DNA of 64,000 bases from Thermophilibacter gallinarum. Its GTDB lineage: Bacteria > Actinomycetota > Coriobacteriia > Coriobacteriales > Atopobiaceae. Below, piece after piece: positions 1,081 to 57,793 of this stretch. The notes beneath the pieces were generated by a model that saw nothing but the letters and a program-made list of their open reading frames with translations, had not been told where the DNA came from and searched no databases. The stretch lies in assembly GCF_014982725.1 (NCBI RefSeq), contig NZ_JADCJZ010000002.1, forward strand, positions 310,001-374,000, written 5' to 3'. The number at the start of each line of letters is the position of its first letter. The first letter of the stretch is position 1. A program made the position numbers and the translations under genes.

Positions 1081-1186
1081 CGGGCACGCGGCGCGACCCC
1101 CTGAGGACCGCCGCGAGTTCTTGCCGAGCGCCCTTCTCGGCAAGCTGTCTGAGCGCCGGACCTCAGGGGGTCGTGCCGCGTGCCCC
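1081..1186 (-). repeat. Conserved-core hairpin element, copy A (after gatB)
   Basis: The arms 1082-1106 and 1161-1185 are complementary over 25 bp with one G-T pair. They enclose a 54-nt core (1107-1160) that, read on the minus strand, begins TCCGGCGCTCAGACAG and contains a 9-bp inner stem (CTTGCCGAG/CTCGGCAAG) with loop AAGGGCG. The core matches the copy at 25509-25562 with only two differences, although the arms are unrelated. It starts 7 bp after the gatB stop codon and is in the sense of gatB. Confidence 0.85.
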
Positions 1187-1192
1187 GGGCCC

Positions 1193-2697
1193 CTACGACT
1201 CGAGCCGCTCCGCCAGCATCTTGTTGAAGGCCTTGGGGTTGCCGGAGCCCTTGGCAGCCTTCATGCACTGGCCCACGAGGAACCCGAGCACCTTCTTGTT
1301 GCCGTCGCGGTACTGCTGGACCTGGTCCGTGCAGCGGCCGAGCACCTCGTCCACGATGGCGCCGAGCGCGCCCTCGTCGGTGGACTGGCGCATGCCGTGG
1401 GCATCCACGTAGGCGGCCGGGTCCTCGCCGGCGCCGTTGACCGCGTCGAGTACCTCGCGCGCCTGGGCAAACGTGATCGCGTCCTCGGCGAGAAGCGCCG
1501 AGAGGCTCGCGACCTGCGCCGGCGTGAGGGCGTCGTAGCTGGGGACGAGGTTCACCATGACCTTGGCCACGGTCTCCACGTTCTTCTCGCCCGCCGCGGT
1601 CAGCGTCTCCTCGAAGAAGGCCGCGACCGCCGGGTCGCCCGCGAGCTGGGCAGCGTCGGCGTGCTTGAGGCCGAAGTCGGCCATGTAGCGGTCGCGCTTG
1701 GCGTCCGGCAGCTCCGGGATGCGCGCGCGGCAGCGGTCGACGAACTCGTCCGTGAGGTCGAAGGGCGCGAGATCCGGGTCCGGGAAGAGGCGGTAGTCGT
1801 CCGCGGTCTCCTTGACGCGCATGACCACGGTGCGCCGGCGGCTCGGCTCCCAGTGGCGCGTCTCCTGGTAGACGATGCCGCCCTCCTCAAGCACCTCGGC
1901 CTGGCGGCAGATCTCGTACTCGAGCGCGTCGTGCAGGCTCTTGAACGAGTTGATGTTCTTCATCTCGGTCTTGGTGCCAAACTTAGTCTCGCCGCGGCGT
2001 CGCAGCGAGATGTTGCCGTCGCAGCGCATCGAGCCGCTCTCGAGCGAGCAGTCGGAGATGCCGAGCGTGAGGAAGGTCTGGCGCAGCTTCTCCATGAAGA
2101 GGCGCGCCTCCTCGGGCGTGCGCAGGTCGGGCTCGGTGACGAGCTCGATCAGCGGCGTGCCGCAGCGGTTGTAGTCGATGAGGGACTCGGTGGCCGCGGT
2201 GATGCGACCCTCCTCGCCGCCCACGTGCACCATCTTGGCGGCGTCCTCCTCCATGTGGATGCGCAGGATCCGGATGGGCGCCACGTAGCCGCCGTCGGCG
2301 TCCTTCTCGACCGTGTCGTCCGGGCGCTCCTTGGCGCCGGCGCCGGAGACCTCCAGGTCCAGGTGGCCGTGCATGCAGAACGCCACGGGACCCTGCGTGG
2401 TCTGGAAGTTCTTGGCCATGTCCGGGTAGAAGTAGTGCTTCCGGTAGAACATGGAGTGGCGCATGATCTCGCAGTTGGTGGCCAGGCCCGCCATGACGAT
2501 CGACTCGATGGCCTTCTCGTTGGGCACGGGCAGTGCGCCCGGCATGCCCAGGCAGACGGGGCAGACGTTGGTGTTGGGCTCGTCGTCGTGGGAGAGGCGG
2601 CAGTTGCAGAACATCTTGGTCTCGAGCGTGGTGAGCTCGGTGTGGACCTCAAGGCCGATCACGGCCTCCCAGTCCTTGAGGACCTCGGCGAGCTTCT

Positions 2698-2701
<4 letters not shown>
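1193..2701 (-). CDS. gatB: Aspartyl/glutamyl-tRNA amidotransferase subunit B
   Basis: 502 residues, slightly longer than the ~480 typical of GatB. It starts near KDWEAVIGLEVHTEL, the signature of the GatB/GatE cradle domain, and ends in a helical GatB/YqeY tail (PKAFNKMLAERLES). With GatA and GatC it converts Glu-tRNA(Gln), and often Asp-tRNA(Asn), to the amidated forms. GatB binds the tRNA and carries the kinase activity. It overlaps gatA by 4 bp as the last gene of gatCAB. A hairpin element follows 7 bp after the stop. Confidence 0.97.
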
Positions 2702-12477: not shown

Positions 12478-12560
12478 CGAGCGCTCTCGCATATGTCGGA
12501 GTTCCAACGGTGTTTTCCCAGTTAGGGCCCTCCGAACTTTGACATATGCGAGAGCGCTCG
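12478..12560. repeat. Inverted repeat with 27-bp arms between convergent genes
   Basis: Arms 12478-12504 and 12534-12560 match over 27 bp except for two G-T pairs and share the core GCTCTCGCATATGTC. A 29-bp AT-richer centre separates them. It lies between the convergent 3' ends of the Rrf2 gene and fba. There is no T-run after either arm, so it is not a standard intrinsic terminator. I saw no second copy in the window. Confidence 0.75.
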
Positions 12561-16030: not shown

Positions 16031-16100
16031 GCCGCCCCTCCGACCTGCACGCAGAACTGCGCTTCGCGGAAGATTCTGCTTAGCAGGTCGGAGGGGCGGC
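16031..16100 (+). terminator. Nested hairpin after the M18 aminopeptidase
   Basis: Arms 16031-16048 and 16083-16100 are perfectly complementary over 18 bp. The 34-nt interior folds again (GCAGAA/TTCTGC). This is the same stem-within-stem design as the conserved-core hairpins, but the core is different. It lies 24 bp after the stop codon and has no T-run, so its role in termination is inferred. Confidence 0.6.
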
Positions 16101-16379: not shown

Positions 16380-17258
16380 CTAGCCGAGAAGGGCCATGAC
16401 CTCTCGCTTGGCGGCGAGGTACTGGTCGGTGAGCTCGAAGTTCTCGGACGCTACCCGCTCCACGGTCACGATGCCCGCCACGTGGCTGGGCTCGCCGGCC
16501 GCCGGCGCGCCCGCGAGCACGTAGATCCGGCTCGCCATGGAGACGGCCTCGTCCACGTCATGCGTGATCACGAGCGCGGAGAGCCCGAGCTCGGCCGCCA
16601 CGTCCACGAACCAGCGGCGCACGTCCGTGCGCGTGAGGGCGTCGAGCGCCGAGAAGGGCTCGTCCAAGAGCGTCACGTCCGCGCCCATGAGGTAGGTGCG
16701 CAGGAACGCCGCGCGCTGCCTCATGCCGCCAGAGAGCTCGCTCGGCCACTTCTGCTCGCAGCCCGCGAGACCGAAGCGCTCGAAGAGGGGCGCCGCCTTG
16801 GCACGCGCATCGACCTTCCCCATGCCCGCGAGCACGAGCGGCAGGCACACGTTGTCGATGATTCGGCGGCTCGGGAGCAGCAGGTCCTTCTGAAGCATGT
16901 AGCTGACGCGCCCCGGCCGGCCGGTCACGTCCTCACCGTGCAGGAGGACGCGGCCGGCCAAGGGGGTCGTCAGGCCGGCGAGGGCGTGCAGGATCGTGGT
17001 CTTGCCGCAGCCGGAGCGGCCCACGAGGCAGCAGACCTCACCGGGCGCCACGTCCACGGTGACATCCGCCACGACGATGTGCTCGCCGTCCCAGGAGAGC
17101 GTGAGACCGCGCGCCTCGAGCGCGGGAACTCCCGTCCCACCGGGGAGGCGAGAAGATCCGGCGCTCAGACAGTCCTCGCCGCATAAGGGCGATGCGGCTG
17201 CGGAACTCGCGGCGGACCTTCTCGCCTCCCCTGCCACGTTCTTCTCGCCAGCCGTCAT
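16380..17258 (-). CDS. ABC transporter ATPase for a thiamine precursor
   Basis: 292 residues. Walker A GRSGCGKT (80-87), signature LSGGMRQR and Walker B VTLLDEP. It belongs to the nitrate/taurine/HMP-type importer ATPases and is ThiZ-like by context: last gene of a TPP-riboswitch operon, 3 bp after the substrate-binding protein. The first ~47 residues form an unusual Ser/Ala/Gly-rich head; residues about 10-39 are encoded by a palindromic element (17142-17231). The ATG at 17258 is kept because it has GGAG upstream and couples to the preceding stop. Confidence 0.9.
   Translation of the reverse strand: MTAGEKNVAGEARRSAASSAAASPLCGEDCLSAGSSRLPGGTGVPALEARGLTLSWDGEHIVVADVTVDVAPGEVCCLVGRSGCGKTTILHALAGLTTPLAGRVLLHGEDVTGRPGRVSYMLQKDLLLPSRRIIDNVCLPLVLAGMGKVDARAKAAPLFERFGLAGCEQKWPSELSGGMRQRAAFLRTYLMGADVTLLDEPFSALDALTRTDVRRWFVDVAAELGLSALVITHDVDEAVSMASRIYVLAGAPAAGEPSHVAGIVTVERVASENFELTDQYLAAKREVMALLG
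17142..17231 (+). repeat. Conserved-core hairpin element, copy B (inside thiZ-like gene)
   Basis: Arms 17142-17155 and 17218-17231 are perfectly complementary over 14 bp and share nothing with the arms of other copies. The core (17157-17216) begins TCCGGCGCTCAGACAG and ends AACTCGCGGCGGA, as in the other copies. Its inner stem differs (GCCGCAT/ATGCGGC) but the loop AAGGGCG is the same as in copy A. It lies within the N-terminal coding region of the ATPase gene, in frame and antisense to it. Confidence 0.85.
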
Positions 17259-24619: not shown

Positions 24620-25477
24620 ATGAACGACCAGCGAATCGCCGTAATCACCGACTCGGGCACGGACACGCCCGCGGACTTCGTCGCGGAGCACGACGTGCGC
24701 GTCATCCCGCTGCGCATCAACTACTCCGACGGCTCGAGCTACGAGAACGGCATCGACATCACGACCGAGGACGTGGTGAGGCGCTTTGACGAGGAGATCC
24801 CCACCACGTCGCTGCCCTCCCCCATGAAGATCCAGCAGACCTTCGAGCTGGCCAGGCGTGATGGCTACGCGGGCGCCGTCGTGGTGACCATCTCCTCCGG
24901 CCTCTCCGCCACCCACGAGACGGTGAGCATGGTCGCGCGCCAGATGGAGGACTTCCCCGTCGTCGTTGTGGACACCAAGAGCATCGGCGTGGCCGCCGGC
25001 ATGGTCGTCATGGAGGCGGTGCGCCAGGTCGAGGCGGGCATGCCGCTCGAGCGCCTGGGCAGCGTGCTCACGGCGGTGAGCGAGCGCGTGCGCGTGTACT
25101 TCTCGGTGCAGAAGCTCGACTTCCTGCGCAAGGGCGGCCGCATCAGCGAGGCCGTCTACCGCGTGGGCTCCGTCCTCAACATCAAGCCCGTGCTCACCTG
25201 TGACGAGCGCGAGGGCAAGTACGTGATCGAGAAGAAGCCGCGCGGCTGGCAGAAAGCCCTCAAGACCCAGGTCGAGCTCGTCGCGGCACAGGCGGAGCGC
25301 TGGGACAAGGTGCGGCTCGCCGTCTGCACCTACGACCCGAGCCTGCGCGGGGAGCTCGAGGCGCGGCTGCGCGAGCGCGTGACCAATGCCGTCGAACTCA
25401 TCAGCTGCGGCATCTCCGCCGACCTGCTCGTGCACACGGGACCCACCCTCGTCGGCATGGCGGTCATGGGCATGTAA
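24620..25477 (+). CDS. DegV family fatty-acid-binding protein
   Basis: 285 residues. It starts with IAVITDSGTDTP, the DegV N-terminal motif, followed by TSLPSP, ISSGLSATHETV and RKGGRISEA, which line the lipid-binding cleft. DegV/FakB proteins bind fatty acids, and those with a FakA partner present them for phosphorylation. No fakA gene is in the window. A conserved-core hairpin follows 12 bp after the stop. Confidence 0.93.
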   Translation: MNDQRIAVITDSGTDTPADFVAEHDVRVIPLRINYSDGSSYENGIDITTEDVVRRFDEEIPTTSLPSPMKIQQTFELARRDGYAGAVVVTISSGLSATHETVSMVARQMEDFPVVVVDTKSIGVAAGMVVMEAVRQVEAGMPLERLGSVLTAVSERVRVYFSVQKLDFLRKGGRISEAVYRVGSVLNIKPVLTCDEREGKYVIEKKPRGWQKALKTQVELVAAQAERWDKVRLAVCTYDPSLRGELEARLRERVTNAVELISCGISADLLVHTGPTLVGMAVMGM

Positions 25478-25489
25478 CTCCATCTGTCC

Positions 25490-25581
25490 GGAGCGCGCGG
25501 GACAAACATCCGGCGCTCAGACAGCTTGCCGAGAAGAGCGCTCGGCAAGAACTCGCGGCGGACGTTTGTACCGCGCGCCCC
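25490..25581 (+). repeat. Conserved-core hairpin element, copy C (after degV)
   Basis: Arms 25490-25507 and 25564-25581 are complementary over 18 bp with two mismatches. The 54-nt core (25509-25562) differs from copy A at two positions only, including the loop (AAGAGCG versus AAGGGCG). It is in the sense of degV and fills the gap between degV and the convergent MTA/SAH nucleosidase gene. Confidence 0.85.
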
Positions 25582-25591
25582 TGCCCTGCCG

Positions 25592-26293
25592 CTACAGCGA
25601 GGCGACCATGTGGGCGACGATCTGGGCGCAGTGGTGGGCGGCGGCCTGCTCGAACTGGGCGTAGGTGATCGTCTGGCCCTCGGCTCCGGGCTTGTCGGAG
25701 ATGGCGCGCACCACGGCGAAGGGCACGCCGTTCAAGGTTGCCACCTGGGCGATCGCGGCGCCCTCCATCTCGCAGCACGTCGCGCCGAACATGGAGAGGA
25801 TGCGCGCGCGGTCCTCCTCGGCGGAGATGAACTGGTCGCCTGAGGCCACGCGGCCGGCGACGGCGCGGACCTCGGGCGCCACGGCGGCGGCCGTCGAGAG
25901 CGCGACCTCGCGCATGCGGGCGTCGGCGACGAACTCGACGCGCTCGCGGCCGGGGATGAGGCCGGGCGCGTAGCCGAGCGGCGCGAGGGAGAAGTCGTGC
26001 TGGACGCAGTCGGTAGCCACGACGAGGTCGCCCACGTCGAGCCCCTCCGGGTCGAGCGAGCCGGCGATGCCGGTGTTGATCAGGTGCGTGACGTGGAAGC
26101 GGTCGACGAGCGCCTGGGCGCAGACGCCGGCGTTGACCTTGCCGATGCCGCACTTGACGACCACGACGTCCTTCTCGCCGAGGCGCCCCTCGTAGAAGTC
26201 CATGCCCACGGCCGAGGTGACCTCCTGGTCGAAGAGGCGCACGCGCAGGAGCTCGACCTCCACGTCCATGGCCCCGATGATGCCGATCCTCAT
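25592..26293 (-). CDS. mtnN: 5'-methylthioadenosine/S-adenosylhomocysteine nucleosidase
   Basis: 233 residues of the PNP/UDP phosphorylase superfamily. Motifs include IGIIGAMDVEVELL, LINTGIAGSLDP, ATCCEMEGAAIAQVA (ribose-binding Met-Glu) and VRAISDKPG with the catalytic Asp. It removes adenine from SAH and MTA. It lies 9 bp downstream of luxS, giving the two enzymes of the S-ribosylhomocysteine route side by side. Confidence 0.96.
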   Translation of the reverse strand: MRIGIIGAMDVEVELLRVRLFDQEVTSAVGMDFYEGRLGEKDVVVVKCGIGKVNAGVCAQALVDRFHVTHLINTGIAGSLDPEGLDVGDLVVATDCVQHDFSLAPLGYAPGLIPGRERVEFVADARMREVALSTAAAVAPEVRAVAGRVASGDQFISAEEDRARILSMFGATCCEMEGAAIAQVATLNGVPFAVVRAISDKPGAEGQTITYAQFEQAAAHHCAQIVAHMVASL

Positions 26294-34571: not shown

Positions 34572-34692
34572 GCCTCGGGGTTCCTCTCGTCGTCGTCTGC
34601 CCTACGAGTGTAGCGGCAAGCCTGGACGCAAAACAGGCGCGGGCGAGAAGAACATCGGGGCACGACGTCCGGGCGGCGCGGCCTTCGCACGC

Positions 34693-34924
34693 GTCCCGGA
34701 ATCGGCGGGGTTCCCCGGTCGGAGCGATGGCGCGTCCCAGAAATTAGGAGGTTCCCCGGCCGCGCCTCGCCCGGGCGCGCGAACACCGGCGATTCCCGGA
34801 CACAATAGCCTCGCAAGCGGAGAAGGTCGCCGATTCCGGGACACGTCACCCGCCCGACTGCGGAACGTCGCCGATTCCGGGACGCACTTCTCGCCAAGGC
34901 GCGGAAGGCCGCCAAAAACGGGAC
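34693..34924. repeat. Inverted unit array I (GTCGCCGATTCCGGGAC family)
   Basis: Two reverse units (GGAATC cores at 34698 and 34739) are followed by four forward units (cores at 34791, 34832, 34873 and about 34914). Consecutive units in each arm are exactly 41 bp apart. The unit consensus is GAAGGTCGCCGATTCCGGGAC, with unrelated 19-20 bp spacers. A period of 41 is not a multiple of 3, which argues against a coding origin. It occupies most of the 381-bp gap between pcrA and the alpha/beta hydrolase; no gene is seen there. Confidence 0.85.
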
Positions 34925-40603: not shown

Positions 40604-40753
40604 GGGTTAAAACCAAGCTCGTCCCCGTTCTTCTCGCCCACTGGGTTAATAATTCCGGCTCGTCCCCCTCCCAGAATGCCTTCCGAGGGGGACGAGCCGG
40701 TATTTCTAACCCGATCGGCCGGTCAGAGGGGGACGAACCGGTATTTCTAACCC
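40604..40753. repeat. Inverted unit array V (GGGTTA...CTCGTCCCC family)
   Basis: Two forward units begin GGGTTA at 40604 and 40643 (39 bp apart; the first lacks two bases) and two reverse units end TAACCC at 40712 and 40753 (41 bp apart). The unit runs from GGGTTA through CCGGCTCGTCCCC. Forward and reverse units are nearly exact complements, so the whole 150 bp can fold back. It fills the gap between two convergent genes. A GTTCTTCTCGCC motif lies between the first two units. Confidence 0.85.
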
Positions 40754-49275: not shown

Positions 49276-49365
49276 CGGACCCCAGGCGATGAGGTCCGGC
49301 GCTCAGACAGCTTGCCGCACAGAACGCTGCAAGAACTCGCGGCGGACCTCATCGCCTGGGGTCCG
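49276..49365 (+). repeat. Conserved-core hairpin element, copy D (after nrdD)
   Basis: Arms 49276-49294 and 49347-49365 are perfectly complementary over 19 bp. The 52-nt core (49295-49346) begins TCCGGCGCTCAGACAG and ends AACTCGCGGCGGA. The inner stem has decayed to CTTGC/GCAAG. It starts 11 bp after the nrdD stop codon, in the sense of nrdD, and separates nrdD from nrdG. Confidence 0.85.
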
Positions 49366-49442
49366 CCGCGAGTCGTCTCGGGGTGCGGCACGCGGGCCCG
49401 GGCCCCGGTGTCGTCCCTGCGGTTCGCCTGGAGGACGCAGGG

Positions 49443-52633: not shown

Positions 52634-52686
52634 GAGGGGCCGAGGGGGCCGGCGGCAGCCTGAGCGCCGGACCCCCTCGGCCCCTC
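52634..52686 (-). repeat. Shortened conserved-core hairpin, copy E (after leuB)
   Basis: Arms 52634-52648 and 52672-52686 are perfectly complementary over 15 bp. The core is only 23 nt; read on the minus strand it keeps TCCGGCGCTCAG and then ends in GCCGCCGG, without the inner hairpin. It lies 17 bp after the leuB stop, in the sense of leuB. Confidence 0.65.
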
Positions 52687-52703: not shown

Positions 52704-53834
52704 CTAGCCCAGGGCCTCCACGATCTTGTCGCCCATCGCGGCGGTGCCGAGGACCTTCTCGGCCGGCGTGCTCTCGTCGGCGATGTCCCCGGTGCGCCAG
52801 CCCTCGTCGAGCACGCGCGTGACCGCGGCTGCCAGCTCGTCGGCTGCGTCGTCCATGCCGAAGCTGTAGCGCAGCATGAGCTCCACCGAGAGGATCTGCG
52901 CGATCGGGTTGGCGATGCCCTGGCCGGCGATGTCCGGCGCGGAGCCGTGGCTCGGCTCGTAGAGGGCCGTGCCGTCGCCTAGGCTCGCGGAGGCGAGCAT
53001 GCCGAGCGAGCCCGTGAGCATGGAGGCCTCGTCGGAGAGGATGTCGCCGAAGGTGTTCTCGGTCACGAGCACGTCGAACTGCGCTGGGTTGGCGATGAGC
53101 TGCATCGCCGCGTTGTCCACGTACATGTCCTCGAGGCGCACGTCGGGGTACTCGGCGGCGATGTTGTGCGCGACCTCGCGCCACATGCGGGAGGTGTCGA
53201 GCACGTTGGCCTTGTCCACGGAGTGCACCACGCCCCTGCGGCGGCGCGCCGCGTCGAAGGCCCAGCGCACTACGCGGTCGACCTCGTACTCGGAGTACTC
53301 CAGGATGTCCCGGGCGTACTCGCCGCGGGTGCCGCCCACGCCGGCGCCCTCGACGCCCATCGTGCGCTCGTGGCCGCCAAAGTAGAGGCCGCCCGTGAGC
53401 TCGCGGACGATGATCAGGTCGACGCCCGTGAGCACCTCGCGCTTGAGCGTGGAGGCGTCGATCAGCGCGTCGAACATGCGCACCGGGCGCAGGTTGAGGT
53501 AGAGGCCCAGCTCCTTGCGGATGGCGAGAAGCCCCTGCTCGGGACGGACGGCGCCCATGCGCGTGTCGGTCCACTTGGGACCGCCCACCGCAGCGAGAAG
53601 GACGGCTTCAGAGGCCTTCGCCGCCTCGAGCGTCTCGGGCGGGAGCGCCGAGACGGGGCCGCCGGCGGCCTCGGTGGCGTCGATCGCCGCGCCGCCAATC
53701 AGGTGGTCCTCGCAGACGAACTCGACGTCGTACTTCTCGCCCAGCGCCGCGAGGACCTTCTTGCCCTCGGCGATGATCTCGGGGCCGATGCCGTCACCCG
53801 GCAGCGTGCAGACGCGATAGGTCGTAGAAGCCAT
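52704..53834 (-). CDS. leuB: 3-isopropylmalate dehydrogenase
   Basis: 376 residues. LPGDGIGPEIIAEGKKVL, LLAAVGGPKWTD, VRELTGGLYFG and DILSDEASMLTGSLGMLASASLG are the beta-decarboxylating dehydrogenase motifs, with the TGG(L/I)YFG of IPMDH. It oxidises 3-isopropylmalate with NAD+ in leucine synthesis. Last gene of leuCDB, 2 bp after leuD. Confidence 0.96.
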   Translation of the reverse strand: MASTTYRVCTLPGDGIGPEIIAEGKKVLAALGEKYDVEFVCEDHLIGGAAIDATEAAGGPVSALPPETLEAAKASEAVLLAAVGGPKWTDTRMGAVRPEQGLLAIRKELGLYLNLRPVRMFDALIDASTLKREVLTGVDLIIVRELTGGLYFGGHERTMGVEGAGVGGTRGEYARDILEYSEYEVDRVVRWAFDAARRRRGVVHSVDKANVLDTSRMWREVAHNIAAEYPDVRLEDMYVDNAAMQLIANPAQFDVLVTENTFGDILSDEASMLTGSLGMLASASLGDGTALYEPSHGSAPDIAGQGIANPIAQILSVELMLRYSFGMDDAADELAAAVTRVLDEGWRTGDIADESTPAEKVLGTAAMGDKIVEALG

Positions 53835-55638: not shown

Positions 55639-55720
55639 GCTGGCGCGCTCCCGGGTTTCTCCCCAGCTCACTTCGCTTCGCTCAGAAGTCGCCGGGCGAG
55701 AAACCCGGCGGCGCGCCAGC
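55639..55720 (-). repeat. Palindromic element between leuA and leuC
   Basis: Arms 55639-55661 and 55698-55720 are complementary over 23 bp with one G-T pair and one mismatch. The 36-nt core, read on the minus strand, contains GGCGACT and GAGCGAAGCGA, both shared with the pcrA insert. It lies 17 bp after the leuA stop codon, in the sense of leuA, and could tune leuA versus leuCDB expression. Confidence 0.7.
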
Positions 55721-57468: not shown

Positions 57469-57793
57469 GCCCTACCCCCTCGTGATCAGGCGCGCCCCCG
57501 ACGGGCGCGATAGTGAGGAGTTTCCCACAGTCGTTGCCGCGTGCGGGAAAAGGTTTTGCAGCTGAAACAAACGGTGCCGCGGGCGGCGGGGTGACGTTCT
57601 TCTCGCCGGGCGCGCTCCTTGCCTCTCCCCGGCCCCACCATTCCGGTGTGTACGAAGTTGAAATGTTGATTTACAAGTTAACAAGCGTTTTAGCTGCGGT
57701 TTTGCAAAAAACGGACGAGTATCATATTTTCAACTTTGTACATACCCGGATAGGGGCGATAAAGAGACGGGCCGAGGGCCGAGAAGGACTCGC
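57469..57793. other. 325-bp leader/upstream region without further gene
   Basis: Upstream of the leucine leader this stretch holds a purine-rich segment, a GTTCTTCTCGCC motif (57596-57607) and the second MITE-like element (57645-57747). A promoter for the leucine operon should lie here, but I cannot point to a convincing -35/-10 pair. Confidence 0.5.
57645..57747. repeat. MITE-like ~103-bp inverted-repeat element, copy 2
   Basis: Ends GGTGTGTACGAAGTTGAAA at 57645 and, on the other strand, GGGTATGTACAAAGTTGAAA from 57747. The terminal repeats match those of the element at 20249-20352 (consensus GGTRTGTACRMAGTTGWAA) while the centres differ. AT-rich against GC-rich surroundings. No ORF inside. 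Confidence 0.72.

Follow-up and report, generated by a model that had tools for sequence, protein, structure and literature searches.

A palindrome family with a fixed core and site-specific arms behind genes of Thermophilibacter and other bacteria: a probable mobile DNA element

The window, that is, the whole stretch of 64,000 nucleotides analysed here, belongs to the 1.85 Mb, GC-rich genome of Thermophilibacter gallinarum (G000; order Coriobacteriales). It carries five related palindromes (A to E), several of which stand behind housekeeping genes (gatB, nrdD, leuB), together with further inverted repeats of other design. Gene names in the window (gatB, nrdD, leuB and others) were assigned from the translated sequence. 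The family to which copies A to E belong is referred to as core1.

1081..1186, minus strand: copy A, core1 palindrome with 25-bp arms and one mismatch, directly behind gatB (1193-2701, minus strand), its core in sense to gatB
1108..1160, minus strand: conserved core of copy A, complement of TCCGGCGCTCAGACAG ... AACTCGCGGCGG
16031..16100, no strand assigned: core2 palindrome, of a second core family ACGCAGAACTGCGCTTCGCGGAAGATTCTGCTTA, with arms GCCGCCCCTCCGACCTGC; absent from the first-pass annotation
17142..17231, plus strand: copy B, core1 palindrome with inner stem of type TCCTCG/CTGCGG; arms of 14 bp perfect plus further pairs
25490..25581, plus strand: copy C, core1 palindrome between convergent DegV-like (24620-25477, plus strand) and MTA/SAH nucleosidase-like (25592-26293, minus strand) genes
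49276..49365, plus strand: copy D, core1 palindrome whose 24-bp arms pair perfectly, starting some 12 nt past the stop codon of nrdD
52634..52686, minus strand: copy E, core1 cut down to its TCCGGCGCTCAG half within a perfect 15-bp palindrome, 17 nt past the end of leuB (52704-53834, minus strand)
55639-55720, 12478-12560, 34689-34846, 40643-40712 and 57645-57746: additional long inverted repeats, nearly perfect and with different centres

The word TCCGGCGCTCAG or its complement occurs at all five loci (17157, 25509 and 49295 on the plus strand; 1149 and 52660 on the minus strand), the chance expectation for such a 12-mer being about 0.01-0.03 per 64 kb, and AACTCGCGGCGG is also found at four of them (17204, 25550 and 49334, plus strand; 1108, minus strand). 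The first-pass annotation had described five hairpins with a common core, and these loci are real; copies A to D are indeed alike, while copy E is better regarded as a truncated derivative (27 bits). Each copy is laid out as an outer arm, TCCGGCGCTCAGACAG, an inner hairpin, AACTCGCGGCGGA and the complement of the outer arm. The same annotation had put the shared core at 52-60 nt, and its two ends are kept, but the inner stem, which falls into a few recurring types, varies and covaries too, so that the strictly invariant part shrinks to GGCGCTCAGACAG / AACTCGCG only. The bipartite core may be written as CTC[A/G]G[A/G]CAG, inner hairpin, AACTCG, set within near-perfect arms of some 20-30 bp that are private to each site, and its minimal form as C-TC[A/G]G[A/G]CAG, variable inner hairpin, AACTC-G, with GGCG/GCGGCG as the usual extension. 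The proposal that the outer arms differ from site to site and are nevertheless self-complementary also stands (25 bp with one mismatch, 14, 24 and 15 bp). Arm cells are paired in 92.4% of cases, against 63.6% after shuffling and 39-44% after sliding, and 20 pairs carry double changes. The window has 17 inverted repeats whose arms reach 14 bp or more, against 1, 0 and 1 in three shuffled windows.

Copy B is not intergenic: it lies within codons 9-39 of an open frame (16380-17258, minus strand) for a putative ABC-transporter ATPase. At the orthologous site the relatives G006 and G017 have an element with other arms, in either orientation, and these elements, read by eye from the sequence, are likewise free of stop codons. 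Copy C folds like the others, with few interruptions in its arms. The flank of copy D (49366-49380) reads CCGCGAGTC, the start of an opposite-strand core, and is likely to be the remnant of a facing partner.

The core2 family (CACGCAGGACTGCGCTTCGCGGAAGATCCTGCTTAGC) has private arms too (L239, L246, L247, L249, L251, L255-L259); its orientation differs between L243 and L252, and it replaces core1 at the gatB site of several species. The word CGAGAAG, which recurs in the arms of many palindromes, occurs 128 times on the two strands of the window, against 6.7 predicted from base composition, and CGAGAAGAACG occurs 11 times against 0.02 predicted; CGAGAAG looks like a Chi-like or DNA-uptake-like signature word. 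In the Omnitrophota genome OFTM55 another hairpin comes about 50 nt after most core1 copies (L061, L070, L083, L086, L100 and others); its loop, CATCGAG, is conserved and its stems are private, and a GTTTCGTTAT...ATAACGAAAC palindrome often comes next. This is a similar design around a different centre.

A covariance model built from 46 diverse copies finds 28 copies in the window's genome, about 25 of them strong. Of the 31 genomes of the genus, 28 have the strict pattern, which none of 29 other genomes tested contains; named relatives that carry the motif are Olsenella and Thermophilibacter (family Atopobiaceae), and across Coriobacteriales the model matches in 71 of 150 genomes and 30 of 77 genera. 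One model match, L352, lies inside a coding region and was discarded as a false positive. The first-pass annotation had placed the layout in Coriobacteriia, and a restriction to that class proved wrong: when about 85,000 species genomes were scanned with a pattern, the matches listed were mostly from Olsenella relatives, followed by Omnitrophota, one Eisenbacteria and one rumen Clostridiales. Outside Coriobacteriales, five genomes hold 56, 23, 12, 6 and 5 copies, and 3 were also counted; the 56 belong to a single Omnitrophota genome, and distribution in that phylum is patchy (14/193 genomes). The core is nearly unchanged between phyla, although beyond the genus it varies as CTC[A/G]G[A/G]CAG ... 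AACTCGC, and in the Clostridiales copies it has shrunk to C-TCAGACAG ... AACTC-G. No core match was found in the viral contigs and the phage and plasmid records searched, and there is thus no sign of phage or plasmid carriage. The open-access literature on Olsenella and Coriobacteriia yielded no described repeat of such design.

Most copies lie 6-20 nt from a stop codon, a position that fits an intrinsic terminator; T tracts flank the Clostridiales copies, and none stand beside the GC-rich copies of the window. Facing pairs are frequent and always run plus then minus, mostly 60-100 nt apart and in some cases up to about 400. The idea that copies are invariably in sense to the upstream gene was rejected, since antisense copies exist, and the bias when counted by gene is 24 clusters with sense copies only, 6 with antisense only and 3 with both. 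GC skew, used to seek a replication-strand bias, is weak and noisy in the window's genome.

Comparison of orthologous sites reveals how the arms change. At the nrdD site, compared in ten species, they differ by matched transversions, by blocks and in length (CCCCAGGCGATGAGG, CCCCAGGAGCTGAGG, CCCCGGGAACGAGG and CCCCCGAAAGGCGAGG are examples, each with its complement), and arms conserved in sequence without compensation, an outcome that the first-pass annotation had held to speak against its reading, were not what homologous sites displayed. The close relatives G006 and G017, whose flanks are mostly 88-98% identical, differ in several ways: at L338 a block of about 16 bp is replaced in both arms while the ends and the core are retained; at L333 the core is flipped between homologous arms; at L344 the core is flipped and the arms are different; at L329/337, L340, L348 and L350 an inverted stretch includes facing copies or neighbouring palindromes; and L335 is a chimera with arms from two alleles. 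At the gatB site, species have core1, core2 or neither core nor arms (G004, G015, G027), and by eye the core1 species G000, G018 and G001 and the core2 species G005 and G003 seem to have homologous arms around unrelated cores. G017 lacks core and arms at L342, and at L349 it lacks the core and has a short palindrome only (GGCGCC-CCCAC-GGCGCC). The cleanest empty sites have neither arm in the flank, which implies that the arms arrive or vanish together with the core, and no target-site duplication was seen at the empty and filled sites compared. The species compared are too distant for insertion and deletion to be separated at any single site; deletion accounts for some absences, and gain is also favoured, by the copy numbers, by the patchiness among phyla and by the presence of one copy inside a coding frame.

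The first-pass annotation had suggested a structured RNA, in present terms a 3' UTR element in which a protein binds the conserved internal loop (UCRGRCAG/AACUC) and selection on the RNA helix makes the arms covary. Very strong arm covariation, a core nearly constant over phyla, the location just behind stop codons with its sense bias, and vertical persistence at nrdD in ten species, all of them sense, speak for such an RNA. Covariation alone cannot separate selection on RNA from copying of DNA, and two further tests were therefore used, namely whether G.U is more frequent than A.C, as it should be in an RNA helix, and how the same site compares between species. In 135 copies from the genus about 98% of the arm pairs beyond position 8 are Watson-Crick, and the mismatches there include 13 G.U and 11 A.C, so that at a distance from the core edge there is no preference for either strand; at position 8 itself A.C or C.A occurs in 34 of 118 arms and G.U never, a pattern that fits no model considered. 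Also contrary to an RNA are the cores that differ in orientation among species at one site (L333, L344), the antisense copies behind several genes, the presence in other species of core2 at the same site within apparently the same arms, and copy B within a coding frame. The window has no Rfam match at the gathering score, let alone the exact match to a known family that would have spoken against a new one, and a permissive search returned only sub-threshold matches that track long hairpins. A kink-turn was dropped on inspection, there being no tandem G.A pairs. A structured RNA is not the best reading and seems unlikely as the primary explanation. The part of the proposal that survives is a possible transcribed role, which the 24:6 sense bias allows; that bias is not required of a purely DNA-level element, counts against a DNA-only account and, with the A.C pairs at position 8, is the strongest fact left unexplained.

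If the family is DNA, the question arises of what moves it and what the arms are. On one view, core1 is of REP/REPIN type and would owe its movement to a RAYT (Y1 HUH) transposase, an enzyme that would recognise, in single-stranded DNA, the inner hairpin together with the RRCAG tag next to it. The habits are REP-like (intergenic, behind genes, in facing dimers, with several families per genome and mismatched hairpins), Y1_Tnp is commoner in carriers (51/71 versus 35/79, p = 0.0009, uncorrected for phylogeny), and other palindromes, which contain a GACAG motif, stand beside RAYT genes. Against this, core1 flanks none of the 27 RAYT-like genes checked (20 in Coriobacteriales, 7 in Omnitrophota), which have other palindromes or none; Y1_Tnp is absent from G005 (16 copies), G020, G026, G177 (23 copies) and G178; G000 has just a fragment, a truncated RAYT-like frame of 128 aa (G000:C2:479406-479639); the foot of the hairpin has no GTAG/CGTC tag; and G.T pairs, common in REPs (PMC3733652), are not so in core1 arms. 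RAYT as the mobiliser, which we consider doubtful, was accordingly set aside as a lead and not a finding, with 27 fetched loci lacking core1 and some many-copy genomes lacking the gene; no mobilising enzyme emerged from these loci. Beside the RAYT genes L309-L328 of Coriobacteriales there are often palindromes that contain a GGGGACAG or TGAGACAGTT motif and whose arms vary in part. Alternatively, the core might parasitise ready-made intrinsic terminators, inserting into the loop of an existing hairpin so that the arms are simply the target. The T-flanked hairpins of the Clostridiales copies, the homologous look of the gatB arms around different cores and the short palindrome of the coreless species at L349 would suit this idea, but coreless sites mostly lack the arms as well (G004, G015 and G027 at gatB; G017 at L342) and copy B sits in a coding frame, all of which makes it improbable. 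Integron attC sites were also dropped on inspection: their conserved boxes lie at the outer ends, elsewhere than in core1 elements.

The best explanation, and in our judgement a probable one, is that core1 is a mobile DNA palindrome resembling REP elements, fixed at its centre and with private arms that template switching keeps matched. The family is multicopy, occurs in several phyla, is present or absent at orthologous sites and often forms facing pairs, and its two arms change jointly, whether in blocks, in length or where the core or an entire facing pair has been flipped. During replication the nascent strand would be copied from the other arm by a template switch between the inverted repeats, and this would keep the arms matched and account for their purely Watson-Crick pairing, for the matched indels and for inversion of the spacer. 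Switching of this kind is reported to render the arms uniform and turn the spacer around (PMC8604942), and a single event is reported to be enough to create a perfect stem (PMC8794818). Matched multi-base arm changes and spacer inversion are both seen here between close relatives (L338; L333; L329/337, L340, L348, L350). Interspecies recombination can also swap whole alleles and so mimic part of the block changes. The first-pass annotation had offered, as its second possibility, that flanking DNA is copied in inverted orientation on insertion; DNA copying from arm to arm is supported by the Watson-Crick-only arms, the matched changes of block and length and the inversion of the core, whereas copying at insertion is not, as the flanks of the cleanest empty sites contain neither arm.

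Such strong hairpins would be tolerated because SbcCD appears to be missing. SbcD (model TIGR00619) had no match in any of 10 genomes of the genus, G000 included, while the same model matches 13 of 14 control genomes; across the order the association of SbcD absence with high copy number is weak (2/29 versus 29/121, p = 0.04, uncorrected for phylogeny). SbcD is present in many other members of Coriobacteriales. In the 1.92 Mb of the G017 genome there are 272 near-perfect inverted repeats whose arms reach 16 bp or more; 35 of them lie on its contig C2 (299 kb), and a shuffled C2 has none. The strong hairpins may in turn act as bidirectional terminators, and a transcribed role on top of the DNA-level one, as bidirectional terminator or RNA-binding site, is possible. 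As in REP-type elements, the conservation of the core hints at a trans-acting protein that recognises it.

It can be suggested, tentatively, that core1 represents a previously undescribed class of selfish DNA, in which a short core spreads between phyla and gains fresh perfect inverted arms at each new site by replication template switching, the family thus being recognisable by its centre and having no fixed ends. Should the spreading enzyme be found, a new kind of mobile element would be defined. Covariation as strong as this is commonly accepted as proof that an RNA is functional, and core1 provides a natural case where strong helix covariation appears to come from DNA replication, with internal controls in the lack of G.U preference, the flipped cores and the swapped cores. 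The family also supplies dozens of comparable sites per genome at which arm homogenisation and spacer inversion can be measured, and a test of whether loss of SbcCD lets palindromes flourish.

Among known systems, REP, REPIN and BIME elements (PMC3733652, PMC3116915) are like core1 in being small palindromes behind genes, in facing pairs, with several families per genome, some copies in genes and a patchy distribution over phyla. Core1 shares the multicopy, intergenic, post-gene and facing-dimer character of REP/REPINs and does not flank a RAYT in the 27 loci, several carriers being without Y1_Tnp. REP stems are 6-13 bp long and part of the family consensus (PMC3733652), whereas core1 arms are 20-30 bp and private to each site; core1 differs further in that its conserved part is central, there is no GTAG/CGTC tag, G.T is not favoured and no RAYT is flanked by it. 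Rickettsia palindromic elements and bacterial MITE-like repeats (PMC10969869) are likewise short mobile palindromes that may sit in frame in genes, and some (Correia) invert, but MITEs have conserved terminal inverted repeats and target-site duplications, whereas the outer ends of core1 differ everywhere and empty and filled sites display no duplication. The double-hairpin or repetitive hairpin-forming elements of sponge mitochondria (PMC2800124) are also short mobile hairpins scattered between genes; they are organellar and have no shared core, and the likeness is an analogy only. Template-switch hairpins and quasipalindrome correction (PMC8604942, PMC8794818) share with core1 the matched multi-base arm changes and the inversion of the spacer; template switching is known as a mutational process at unrelated sites, whereas core1, on which it seems to be at work, is a dispersed family whose spacer is conserved.
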